Of a stretch of 64,000 nt of DNA, positions 1 through 16,782 are shown piece after piece. The stretch is taken from NCBI RefSeq assembly GCF_002845985.1, contig NZ_PDFK01000001.1, positions 1,116,001-1,180,000 on the forward strand. Reading direction: 5' to 3'. The notes below the pieces were generated by a model. It saw only the letters and a list, made by a program, of their open reading frames with translations. It searched no databases and was not told the origin of the DNA. This DNA is from Lysinibacillus fusiformis (GTDB lineage Bacteria; Bacillota; Bacilli; Bacillales_A; Planococcaceae). How positions within the stretch are numbered: position 1 is the first letter of the stretch; each line of letters opens with the position of its first letter. The position numbers and the translations under genes are program-made.

Positions 1-373
1 CAGTAATAGGCAACGAAGATGTATTCGTAGCTAAAATGGCATGTGCTGGTGCAATGCCATCAAGTTGCTTAAAGATGGATTGCTTAATGTCCATATTCTC
101 TACTGCTGCCTCGATGATAATATCTACATCACTAGCATCCTGTAAATCTAGTGACATACTAATTCGACCTAAAACAGCCGCTTTGTCATCCTCCGTTTTA
201 CGGCCCTTTTCTACATCACGTGATAAATTTTTTGTAATAACTCCTATTCCACGCTCGAAGAACTCTTGTTTGATATCATTCAATTTCACATCATAGCCTG
301 CTTGTGCACAAACTTGTGCAATACCAGAGCCCATTTGCCCTGCACCAATGACCATTACCTTTTGAATTCCCAT
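1..373 (-). CDS. hbd: 3-hydroxybutyryl-CoA dehydrogenase, N-terminal part (cut by window start)
   Basis: The minus-strand frame from ATG at 373 stays open to base 1 and encodes the first ~124 residues of a 3-hydroxyacyl-CoA dehydrogenase. The N-terminus has the Rossmann dinucleotide-binding pattern GAGQMGSGIAQVCAQAG, followed by the family segments DVDIIIEAAVE and LATNTSSL. The enzyme would interconvert acetoacetyl-CoA and 3-hydroxybutyryl-CoA with NAD(P)H in the cytoplasm. Its ATG shares one base with the stop of the upstream thiolase (TAATG), so the two are translationally coupled and catalyse consecutive steps of short-chain fatty acid oxidation. The C-terminal catalytic half lies outside the window. 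Confidence 0.93.
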   Translation of the reverse strand, partial: MGIQKVMVIGAGQMGSGIAQVCAQAGYDVKLNDIKQEFFERGIGVITKNLSRDVEKGRKTEDDKAAVLGRISMSLDLQDASDVDIIIEAAVENMDIKQSIFKQLDGIAPAHAILATNTSSLPIT

Positions 374-14570: not shown

Positions 14571-14690
14571 AATGGACGCTCCCTTTTAGTCTTTTACTAT
14601 AACCTTTTTATTATAGGATGAATACTCCTGTTTTTTCAAGATAGAAGTCATGTAAAGCATCTCACAAATATAGATGGAGAATAAATAAAA

Positions 14691-14723
14691 ACTCCTCTCT
14701 TTACATAATCGAAAGAGAGAAGT
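14691..14723 (-). terminator. terminator after yidC
   Basis: ACTTCTCTCTTT and AAAGAGAGGAGT form a 12-bp stem (one G-U) with a 9-base loop, followed by TTTTATTT on the minus strand. Confidence 0.9.
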
Positions 14724-14729
14724 TTCATT

Positions 14730-15362
14730 TTATCTATACCATTTTTTAATGATTAATTGTTGAACTATTAATAATATAGCACTAACTGTCCAATAGATAG
14801 GGATAATCGCTGGATTGAACAAACTAAAAATGAGGATCATGATTGGATTAATGAACACCATAATCTTCATATTAAGTGGTTGGCTTTTCTCTAAGGAGAA
14901 AACACTTTGCATCAAATAAATCAAACAAGCAATGATCGAAATGCCAATATCTATCGTACCTAAATTCATCCATAGGAAATTTTCACTTGCGATGACGGTA
15001 TCTAACTTAATCGCGTAATACAGTGAAAATAATACAGGCAATTGAACAATAATAGGTAAACAGCCTAATAAAGAACTTTTCAATGAATCTGACGTTAATG
15101 CTTGCATTTTTTGTTGTACTATTATTTTTTCAGATTCATTTTGACTGTTCTTATATTTAGTGGTAAGCGCATCTAGTTCAGGCTTAATGGCTGACATTAG
15201 TTCTTTCGAGCGCTTTTGATGTTTTGCAGATTGAATAAATAGCGGCATTAGAATTAATCTTACTGCAATCGTAATGCCAATGACACTCACTGCATAGCTA
15301 CCTGTAAATGAATGGATGAAATGAATGAAGTAAATAATCGGTTGTGCTAAAAAGGTTAACAA
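14730..15362 (-). CDS. yidC: YidC/Oxa1 membrane insertase, short form without lipobox
   Basis: 210 residues, against ~260-275 for B. subtilis SpoIIIJ and YqjG. There are five hydrophobic helices. The conserved helix-1 arginine that lies in the hydrophilic groove is in AVRLILMPLFIQ (near residue 35), followed by the cytoplasmic coiled-coil hairpin (KHQKRSKELMSAIKPELDAL). LLGCLPIIVQLPVLFSLYYAI and the closing NPAIIPIYWTVSAILLIVQQ match the family. Unlike SpoIIIJ there is no signal peptide or lipobox cysteine: helix 1 begins almost at the N-terminus. The start is TTG at 15362, 7 bases after AGGAGG, and that Shine-Dalgarno is buried in a hairpin (15371-15403). The gene follows a MifM-like ORF. 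It probably inserts membrane proteins as an auxiliary, inducible insertase. Confidence 0.9.
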   Translation of the reverse strand: MLTFLAQPIIYFIHFIHSFTGSYAVSVIGITIAVRLILMPLFIQSAKHQKRSKELMSAIKPELDALTTKYKNSQNESEKIIVQQKMQALTSDSLKSSLLGCLPIIVQLPVLFSLYYAIKLDTVIASENFLWMNLGTIDIGISIIACLIYLMQSVFSLEKSQPLNMKIMVFINPIMILIFSLFNPAIIPIYWTVSAILLIVQQLIIKKWYR

Positions 15363-15370
15363 TGATATTC

Positions 15371-15403
15371 CTCCTAGTTTAAAAGTTTACATGAAACTAG
15401 GAG
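15371..15403 (-). promoter_or_regulatory. hairpin sequestering the yidC Shine-Dalgarno
   Basis: In minus-strand RNA, CTCCTAGTTT (15403-15394, inside the last codons of the upstream ORF) pairs perfectly over 10 bp with AAACTAGGAG (15380-15371), with a 13-base loop. The yidC SD AGGAGG (15375-15370) lies almost entirely in the 3' arm. No U-run follows, so it is a translational switch rather than a terminator. Confidence 0.85.
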
Positions 15404-15662
15404 ATACACTTTCTTCCTCACTGTTTTCCGACGTCCTAATACATAGAACAAACCACGTTAGCATAGGTGGAGTCCAAGTATTCGTGATATTATAGTCAAC
15501 TTCAAACGCTTCGTCCTTTACTTCTTGAATTGTTATTTTATTAACCAGATACAGATGCAAATGAACACTTAGCACAGTTAAAACCAAAGAAGCTAATAGC
15601 CAAAAGTATTCCATTGTACTGACAATAATGAATAAATCATTGATGAGAAGTGACCAAATCAT
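15387..15662 (-). CDS. MifM-like membrane arrest peptide (upstream regulator of yidC)
   Basis: 91 residues from ATG 15662, which is preceded by GGAAGGAGG. One long hydrophobic stretch spans residues ~6-40 (starts MIWSLLINDLFIIVS), then a polar region (~43-65), then the C-terminal segment LTWFVLCIRTSENSEEESV ending SPSFM. B. subtilis MifM, recalled from the literature, is a ~95-residue single-span protein encoded just before yidC2. Its arrest region TTWIRKVFRMNSPVNDEEDAG stalls the ribosome at the acidic run unless it is pulled by membrane insertion. Here TW, an Arg six residues later, and an acidic triplet fall at nearly the same spacing, and an IND tripeptide sits at the start of the membrane span in both. 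The SD-masking hairpin begins about 10 bases after the acidic codons. A generic small membrane protein remains possible if the similarity is chance. Confidence 0.75.
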   Translation of the reverse strand: MIWSLLINDLFIIVSTMEYFWLLASLVLTVLSVHLHLYLVNKITIQEVKDEAFEVDYNITNTWTPPMLTWFVLCIRTSENSEEESVSPSFM

Positions 15663-15683
15663 AATACTCCTCCTTCCTATCAC

Positions 15684-15857
15684 TAATTAAATTAAAGAAC
15701 CATACATTCTACTGACCAATAGATGACAGTTGTTTCATCAATTTTTCTCTCTTCTATAAAATAGAAACTATTACTTAACTTATCTACGCAACTACGTAAA
15801 ATAAGTTTCAAATTTATGACGTATAGCTATTCTTCATTTCAATAGAAAATACAAAAT
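15684..15857. other. intergenic leader region before the MifM-like gene
   Basis: AT-rich region that should hold the promoter of the MifM-like/yidC pair. I see no convincing -35/-10 pair. An imperfect inverted repeat (ACTTATCTACGC ... ACGTAAAATAAGT, 15777-15805) is present. Confidence 0.4.
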
Positions 15858-15880
15858 GGGGCAAGCCTATAGCTAACCCC
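15858..15880 (-). terminator. terminator after speB
   Basis: GGGGTTAGC and GGCTTGCCCC-type arms pair over about 9 bp with one mismatch around a 5-base loop, followed by ATTTTGTATTTT on the minus strand, 30 bases after the speB stop. Confidence 0.7.
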
Positions 15881-15909
15881 ATCCAATCAATCTGTTTTCA
15901 ATGCCTTAC

Positions 15910-16782
15910 TTATTTTACCCAGCCTAAAATCATTTCTCGTAATAATTTAGAAGCTGTGTTTGCCGTCATTTCTGATGAATCATAGATAGGTGCGACTTCT
16001 ACTAGATCAAAGCCTACAACATTTACACCACTAGCTGCTATCGCGTGGATGGAAGCTAGTAATTCTTTTGATGTAATACCTCCACAATCTACTGTACCAG
16101 TGCCTGGAGCGTGTGCTGGATCTAAAACGTCAATATCAATCGTTACATACACATTGCGCCCAGCTAATGTTGGTAAAACCTCTTTTAACGGCTCAAGCAC
16201 TTCAAATTTTGAAATGTGCATGCCGTTTTCCTTTGCCCATTCAAATTCTTCTTTCATGCCTGAACGAATGCCGAAAGAATAAACATTTTTCGGTCCAATA
16301 TGTTCCGCAATCTTACGAATTGGTGTTGAGTGAGAAAGTGGTTCTCCCTCATATTCCACACGTAAATCGGTATGTGCATCAAAATGAATGATGGCAAGAT
16401 CATCATATTTAGCAGAGACAGCCTTCATAACTGGCCAAGACACTAAATGCTCCCCACCCATACCGACAGGAATCTTGCCATCTGCTAATAATGTTTCAAT
16501 AAATTTTTCGATTTCATCTAATGAGCGCTGTGCATTCCCGAAAGGTAGTGGAATATCACCAGCATCAAAGTACTTTACTTCCTCAAGCTCGCGATCTAGA
16601 TATGGGCTATACTCTTCAAGACCGATCGATACCTCACGGATACGCTGTGGACCGAAACGTGATCCTGGACGGTAACTTACTGTCCAGTCCATTGGCATGC
16701 CATAAATAACGGCTTGTGCATCCTCATAGGTAGGATGACTTTTTATAAAAACATTTCCTGAATAAGCTTCATCAAATCTCAT
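15910..16782 (-). CDS. speB: agmatinase
   Basis: 290 residues of the ureohydrolase fold. The binuclear Mn ligands are visible in GMGGEHLVSWP, IIHFDAHTDLR and YVTIDIDVLDPAHAPGTGT, with the C-terminal GFDLVEVAPIYD segment. The enzyme hydrolyses agmatine to putrescine and urea. In B. subtilis speE (spermidine synthase) lies just upstream of speB and next to pbpG; here speB is directly next to the divergent pbpG with no speE between them. Arginase is less likely given the length, motif details and position. Confidence 0.93.
   Translation of the reverse strand: MRFDEAYSGNVFIKSHPTYEDAQAVIYGMPMDWTVSYRPGSRFGPQRIREVSIGLEEYSPYLDRELEEVKYFDAGDIPLPFGNAQRSLDEIEKFIETLLADGKIPVGMGGEHLVSWPVMKAVSAKYDDLAIIHFDAHTDLRVEYEGEPLSHSTPIRKIAEHIGPKNVYSFGIRSGMKEEFEWAKENGMHISKFEVLEPLKEVLPTLAGRNVYVTIDIDVLDPAHAPGTGTVDCGGITSKELLASIHAIAASGVNVVGFDLVEVAPIYDSSEMTANTASKLLREMILGWVK

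Follow-up and report, generated by a model that had tools for sequence, protein, structure and literature searches.

A 91-codon upstream open reading frame (uORF) directly preceding the third yidC gene (yidC3) of Lysinibacillus fusiformis probably encodes a MifM-type monitor of YidC, which has a rewritten arrest sequence and would control a YidC that lacks a lipobox; judged from sequence comparisons, it would work in the same way as MifM. MifM is the reference YidC monitor, a peptide that arrests the ribosome translating it if membrane insertion does not succeed, and that thereby switches on a spare insertase. The 64,000-nucleotide stretch of DNA analysed here is referred to as the window, and all positions are those of the window.

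The uORF and yidC3

The features of the locus are as follows:

15387..15662, minus strand: uORF, proposed MifM-type arrest peptide of 91 aa (ATG at 15662, stop at 15389-15387)
15540..15608, minus strand: codons of the hydrophobic span, residues 19-41 (best 19-residue window 22-40, Kyte-Doolittle scan)
15435..15488, minus strand: uORF codons 59-76, ITNTWTPPMLTWFVLCIR, the conserved core around Trp63 and Trp70 (dN/dS 0.03)
15411..15419, minus strand: Glu82-Glu83-Glu84, the acidic run, where stalling is predicted to begin (no variation in the window group)
15394..15403, minus strand: 5' arm of the SD-masking hairpin, within the last uORF codons (codons 87-89 identical at every base in 10 orthologues)
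15371..15380, minus strand: 3' arm of the hairpin, overlapping the yidC Shine-Dalgarno sequence (SD) AGGAGG (15375-15370)
14730..15362, minus strand: yidC3, 210 aa, TTG start at 15362-15360 (PF02096, E 4.9e-31)

The original prediction had placed a 91-residue ORF directly before yidC, and its coordinates, ATG and stop were verified; the quoted C-terminus had also been read correctly, with the EEE codons at 15419-15411. A gap of 24 nt separates the uORF from yidC3. The pair is preceded by an arginase-family gene, which we take to be the agmatinase gene speB, and followed by a DUF1934 gene. Of 30 loci examined in a comparison with empty sites, 20 lack yidC3, and none of these 20 showed speB within 1500 nt of the DUF1934 gene; it was likewise absent from the 1500 nt before this gene in two genomes that do carry yidC3 (L156 in G006 and L148 in G018). 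No family in Pfam or NCBIfam matched the uORF, and its relatives were absent from viral contigs and from plasmids at the sensitivities used in this test for mobile elements. The uORF shares with the MifM class both its position, as a family-less ORF directly before a secondary yidC, and its single N-terminal span, for which an N-out/C-in orientation is predicted since no K or R precedes it.

Three yidC matches are present in the source genome, that of the window being the third. The other two adjoin an rnpA-like ORF and an AraC-like regulator gene, respectively (both recognised by eye), and no ORF of at least 40 codons lies between either of them and its upstream gene. YidC3 does not have the N-terminal lipobox segment of the other two YidCs; a longer start is impossible, because the frame holds only about 8 codons upstream of the TTG. 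Arg35 of YidC3 is invariant across the six YidCs aligned, and this arginine has a role in the insertase.

Conservation and selection within Lysinibacillus

With the uORF as query, matches at E <= 0.1 were obtained in 11 of 32 genomes of the genus, the source genome included, and ten of these are intact (the window group). The match in G014 (L014) was weak, contained internal stops and was dropped from the 11, and match L015 was also dropped for its internal stops. The same ten genomes hold a matching short yidC (84-100% identical) directly downstream of the uORF. According to a scan of named genomes, the uORF locus is present in L. boronitolerans, L. capsici, L. cavernae, Lysinibacillus sp. 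ZYM-1, L. sphaericus 2362 and L. fusiformis ATCC 7055.

Over the whole ORF, dN/dS among the ten orthologues is 0.17, which indicates that the uORF is coding. By residues it amounts to 0.17 for 1-26, 0.18 for the linker (27-58), 0.03 for 59-76, 0.16 for 77-81 and 0.00 for 82-85. Seventeen of the 18 core columns (residues 59-76) are invariant in the 10 sequences, and Leu73 is invariant despite the use of five Leu codons. Glu82-Glu84 do not vary in the window group, nor do N8 and D9 of the IND motif. Synonymous change is low in codons 86-91 (pS 0.17 vs 0.34 overall), and codons 87-89 (TCT CCT AGT) are identical at every base in the 10 orthologues, as expected of a pairing arm. Comparison of the ten genomes shows the uORF to be a conserved coding gene tied to yidC3, with the core and the acidic run as its most constrained parts.

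A check for homologues had been proposed with the original prediction, and the uORF was indeed found before yidC in Lysinibacillus with the Trp, the acidic run and the hairpin conserved. The proposed likeness of the C-terminus to MifM (TW, an Arg six residues on, then an acidic cluster) held in part: Trp and acidic run are kept, whereas the Arg, invariant in the window group, is Cys or Tyr in the g19 relatives described below and is therefore not a feature of the wider set.

The hairpin over the yidC3 SD

A perfect 10-bp hairpin reaching from the last ORF codons onto the yidC SD had been predicted, and it is there: CTCCTAGTTT (15403-15394) pairs with AAACTAGGAG (15380-15371), the outer pair T15404-G15370 extending the helix to 11 bp. 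Its 3' arm covers most of AGGAGG (15375-15370), and the locus thus also has the stem-loop between uORF end and yidC SD that is a feature of the MifM class.

One of 200 dinucleotide shuffles of the window sequence produced a helix of 11 bp over the SD; for the orthologues L006 and L012 the numbers were 10 and 0 of 200, respectively. As three control yidC2 leaders were about as extreme (L031, 1; L029, 2; L035, 4 of 200), this statistic alone does not discriminate; it performed well with the window group and with two of the three MifM rows, poorly with the bulged hairpins of g14, g16, g17 and g19, and its start positions were off for three controls and g16. The MFE z-score of the 80 nt around the start (-70 to +10) was preferred over helix length, using the GTG start for g16. 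The z-score of the window is -2.8 (-3.6 with fewer shuffles), and all 30 uORF-yidC pairs tested lie between -1.7 and -5.8. Among 20 yidC starts without such an ORF, 18 range from -1.1 to +1.5, the exceptions being L135 (-4.7) and L126 (-3.7).

In these two loci (L126 in G016 and L135 in G053) a strong hairpin precedes the yidC start and no MifM-like ORF was seen upstream. Control yidC2 SDs have a complementary stretch of 10-12 nt some 70 nt upstream (about -74 to -63) in L002, L029, L031, L035, L045 and L139; the overall fold of uORF-less yidC2 leaders with an SD complement near -70 is not unusually stable.

The hairpin arms vary between lineages, yet each joins the uORF end to at least part of an SD-like stretch (judged by eye). 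Within the window group the arms hardly vary, and base-by-base covariation is therefore not claimed. Sequence comparison shows that the last uORF codons form a hairpin that hides the yidC3 SD.

Relatives in other genomes

Seven other Lysinibacillus genomes encode, at another locus, a short YidC of a second type, which shares about 35% identity with that of the window and also lacks the lipobox. The 86-aa uORF of these genomes (the WLRKV group) carries WLRKVIYSKSDNDEE, and its C-terminus is WLRKVIYSKSDNDEELVSLL or close to it. At locus L053 (G014:C20:84500-87500) the MBL-fold gene that stands before uORF and yidC in the seven WLRKV genomes is present and yidC is represented by a short match with stops, suggesting that yidC was lost there.

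Among 261 genomes searched with the profile of the window group, matches were obtained in two of genus g19, which belongs to the same family (per-genome E 3.5e-5 and 4.1e-4); their uORFs end in KWLPPILHWLVKCICTDQDNTEEHAF and AWLPPLLRWRVKCIYTGQDNEENIPF and precede a yidC with a lipobox. Widened with g19, the profile (A3) found one g14 genome (E 9.6e-6), with a uORF reading LWFVPFLHWMIKCHYF..HDD. A further A3 match, in another family, f9 (uORF FSPVLRWRIKCLSKMSDEIE), had E 0.0023 per genome among 398 and is not significant by score; it was kept because it stands directly before yidC and has an SD hairpin of its own. Reading upstream of 19 chosen yidC genes revealed uORFs in four g17 genomes (PPLTD..QLRKTVCRLERPED.EG) and one g16 genome (VIVWLQRSTKRYEYSDEDAD), and no such uORF at the other 14, where two loci, L133 and L139, have off-frame ORFs that overlap the AraC-like gene and were discounted on visual inspection. 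The 20 yidC regions were chosen, partly for genomes with three yidC genes, and are not a random sample; the reading left out the third yidC copies of G061 and G159. The same layout was found before yidC in seven other Lysinibacillus genomes, in the genera g14, g16, g17 and g19 and in one f9 genome, which answers the original suggestion to look for it in relatives.

Matches L059-L062, L076 and L077 were dropped after reading their ORFs. From the MifM homologue search (31 rows), only rows below E 0.002 were read, the 26 at E >= 0.002 being left out, and in the A3 searches L114-L120, rows without loci (g14 search) and L141, L143 and L144 (398-genome search) were left out; further uORFs may be present among these rows.

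In a tree of YidC sequences, the uORF-less YidC2 genes form one clade (99/99) and two YidC1-type genes another, and all 30 uORF-linked YidCs belong to neither. Support for the join of the two Lysinibacillus short-YidC groups is only 46/60, on long branches. One or two origins of the association between uORF and yidC are possible, the deep joins of the tree being weak and long-branched.

Relationship to MifM

The B. subtilis MifM sequence used here was compared with PDB 3j9w, from which it differed in one residue. Five genomes of one genus have homologues 58-96% identical to it, before yidC, and these form profile A4 (Bacillus-type MifM). Profile comparisons were judged against column-shuffled controls. 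The two g19 sequences match the WLRKV group (P 1.2e-4; 0 of 60 shuffles as good; observed 27.6, best shuffle 25.7), as does A3 (P 6.9e-4; 0 of 100), and the WLRKV group matches A4 (P 1.9e-4; 0 of 100). The direct comparisons of the window group with A4 (P 0.16; 13 of 60 shuffles as good) and with the WLRKV group (P 0.057; 5 of 60) are not significant, and both align Trp to Trp and acidic to acidic residues. Against A4, g19 (P 0.14; 7 of 60), g17 (P 0.2; 14 of 60) and A3 (P 0.13, no shuffles) are not significant either. In the comparison of g19 with g17 one of 60 shuffles was as good, but over a different region.

The matches of the window group to g19, of g19 to the WLRKV group and of the latter to MifM make descent of the window group from a MifM-like ancestor likely; the g17 uORFs may share this descent. 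The arrest sequence of the window group probably derives from that ancestor by way of intermediates and retains in register only the Trp and the acidic run. The description as a far-diverged member of the MifM class fits, with the qualification that the link runs through intermediates and that the direct comparison with MifM is not significant.

The degree of rewriting is considerable. The MifM arrest consensus is given as RIxxWIxxxxxMNxxxxDEED (PMC7897499), of which only W70 and the acidic run fit the uORF. Six single residues are reported to be important in MifM (R69, I70, W73, I74, M80 and N81; PMC4423224); only the Trp is identical in register in the uORF, where P66, M67, F71, T77 and S78 occupy the places of R69, I70, I74, M80 and N81. 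On the other hand, the MifM criterion of PMC10987492 is an acidic run between residues 70 and 100 with a five-residue charge below -0.3, and E82-E84 lie in this range, NSEEE having a value of -0.6 (by hand).

The distance from the Trp to the last acidic residue is 14 in the window and WLRKV groups and in L057, 13 in L058 and L113, and 16 in g16 and the MifM rows; relatives that have a Trp thus carry acidic residues at a similar distance after it. Counted from the first base of the codon for the last acidic residue, the 5' arm starts after 7-9 nt in the window group (Glu84) and after 9-11 nt in the five MifM rows, the position for L057 being unusable because a long-range pair was counted. From the span to the acidic run there are 43-44 residues in the uORF; estimated in the same way, the distance is 51-59 in two MifM rows, 43-51 in g14, g19 and f9, 50-56 in g17, 62 in the WLRKV group and 81 in g16. 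A median MifM spacer of 54 has been reported, and short, uniform spacers have been linked to YidC monitors (PMC10987492); that the uORF falls short of this median speaks against the MifM reading.

An arrest peptide with the same layout and job could also have arisen without MifM ancestry, by convergence on a span and an acidic C-terminus before yidC. We consider this rather unlikely, although it would accord with the non-significant direct comparison, with the g17 uORFs, which have no Trp in that place and no profile match to MifM, and with CliM, which does the same job and is described as having no similarity to known arrest peptides (PMC13183943). It is opposed by the g19-WLRKV and WLRKV-MifM comparisons, in which the observed match beat every shuffle, and by the grouping of uORF-linked YidCs apart from uORF-less ones, as far as the tree resolves.

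Proposed mechanism

If the uORF acts as a MifM-type monitor, its nascent chain would carry an N-out membrane span. As long as YidC activity is sufficient, insertion would pull the chain, the ribosome would run to the stop, the hairpin would refold and yidC3 would stay off. Once the capacity of YidC1/YidC2 fails, the chain would remain uninserted and the core W63-P65-P66-L68-W70-FVLCIR-EEE would hold the ribosome, whose P site would be occupied by the Glu84 codon or by one of the few that follow. The leading edge of the stalled ribosome would then remove the 5' arm of the hairpin, and yidC3 would be translated as a spare insertase. A ribosome covers about 15 nt downstream of the start of the P-site codon, so that one stalled at Glu84 would remove about half of the 5' arm.

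The final step of this model, the opening of the yidC3 SD by the stalled ribosome, is weaker than originally proposed: the long hairpin is removed, but in the folding model the freed SD of the window re-pairs with early yidC codons (0.06 unpaired), which weakens the step without refuting it. The remaining 66 nt fold with -4.8 kcal/mol, against -21.0 for the 89-nt region with the hairpin. Modelled opening is absent in the window and the genome of the same species (0.03 to 0.06 unpaired), while the SD is partly freed in the other eight members of the group (0.18-0.76 unpaired), and three MifM rows give 0.26-0.91. It is slight or absent in two WLRKV rows, in g14 (0.44 falls to 0.16-0.32) and in one of two g17 rows.

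An alternative is ordinary translational coupling: the uORF would encode a small membrane protein with a function of its own, and each round of its translation would open the yidC SD with no regulated arrest. The hairpin would indeed be opened by any ribosome that reaches the uORF stop codon. The distribution of constraint makes this improbable, as it is concentrated at residues 59-76 and 82-85, which are expected in the exit tunnel, and the span and linker vary more; moreover, relatives also have the acidic run at a similar distance before the hairpin. It is very improbable that the arrest responds to another signal than YidC, for instance to Sec translocation or a small ligand, yidC being just the output. 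SecM and VemP, which have the same layout, are sensors of Sec (PMC10987492), but the 43-44-residue spacer is nearer to the YidC-monitor class than to the longer Sec-monitor class of that study, and the output gene is yidC in all 31 pairs read, most of which were found through yidC or the adjoining uORF. An RNA-only regulator with an incidental reading frame is scarcely credible: the region before yidC does fold more stably than its shuffles, but protein-level selection on the uORF is clear, and a terminator or riboswitch was rejected, as two Rfam matches fell far below their gathering scores and 14600-15950 holds no terminator-like site.

Within the YidC-monitor interpretation, a bolder proposal, which we put forward tentatively and with the balance somewhat against it, is that the uORF represents a new arrest-sequence class in the yidC-monitor lineage. 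The elements W-x-P-P-x-L-x-W-x-V-x-C-I would have replaced the exit-tunnel contacts of MifM (R69-I70, I74 and M80-N81), the acidic run at the peptidyl-transferase centre would have been kept, and the controlled gene would be a third YidC without a lipoprotein signal. The change may have taken place in step with a Gln replacing Met90 in L22: the L22 of the source genome (L145, G000:C21) reads RPRAQGRAS, with Gln at residue 91, which we take to align with B. subtilis Met90. L22 Met90 has been reported to modulate the species specificity of MifM (PMC4423224).

Significance

For its stalling, MifM reportedly depends on several distinct contacts in the tunnel (PMC4423224). The uORFs described here are a natural series that grades from a MifM-like sequence (WLRKV..DNDEE) into a strongly rewritten one (WTPPMLTWFVLCIR..EEE), and a single genus contains two of the kinds. 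Such a series would let one ask which contacts arrest needs and whether peptide and L22 tunnel residue evolve together. A further prediction is a reserve YidC, switched on when insertion fails, in a set of Lysinibacillus species including strains of L. sphaericus and L. fusiformis.

Comparison with known arrest peptides

Three arrest peptides before yidC have been named, MifM, ApcA and CliM (PMC13183943). A survey of 592 Firmicutes genomes yielded 572 MifM sequences, for which an acidic window at residues 70-100 was the selection criterion (PMC10987492); the terms "Lysinibacillus", "Bacillaceae", "Bacillales" and "Planococc-" do not occur in the main text of that paper, and Lysinibacillus uORFs may be among the MifM sequences in its supplementary list. 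Our literature search returned no paper joining MifM with Lysinibacillus and none on diverged Bacillus MifM homologs; for yidC or arrest peptides in Planococcaceae and ORFs upstream of Lysinibacillus yidC, none of the matches listed (titles and abstract starts) concerned this uORF.

ApcA of Actinobacteria is, as proposed for the uORF, an arrest peptide before a presumably secondary yidC (PMC7897499), but its RAPG motif (PMC10987492) is absent from the uORF, in which none of the motifs RAPP, RAPG and RAGP occurs. CliM (uC_KYxIW) of Clostridia monitors YidC by arrest, as the uORF is proposed to do, and shares with it the span and the SD-masking stem-loop (PMC13183943); it differs in its KYxIW motif, which the 91-aa uORF does not contain. 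The acidic-run mechanism is named as what sets MifM apart from CliM (PMC13183943). The 86-aa uORF of the WLRKV group is closer, with the same genus, layout and Trp-to-last-acid distance (14), and it has the profile link to MifM. Unlike the uORF of the window, it stands at another locus, before a YidC only about 35% identical, and is without the WTPP element.

Failing the B. subtilis arrest consensus, the uORF is filed apart from MifM itself. It has neither RI before the Trp nor MN after it, carrying WTPPMLTWFVLCIR instead; its target is a third YidC without a lipobox, and the distance from Trp to last acid is 14 as against 16 in MifM. In layout, as read on the five genomes with a 58-96% identical ORF, it is nevertheless like mifM-yidC2 (yqjG): a uORF before a secondary yidC with a TTG start, one N-terminal span, a C-terminal Trp followed by an acidic run, and a hairpin from the last codons to the SD.
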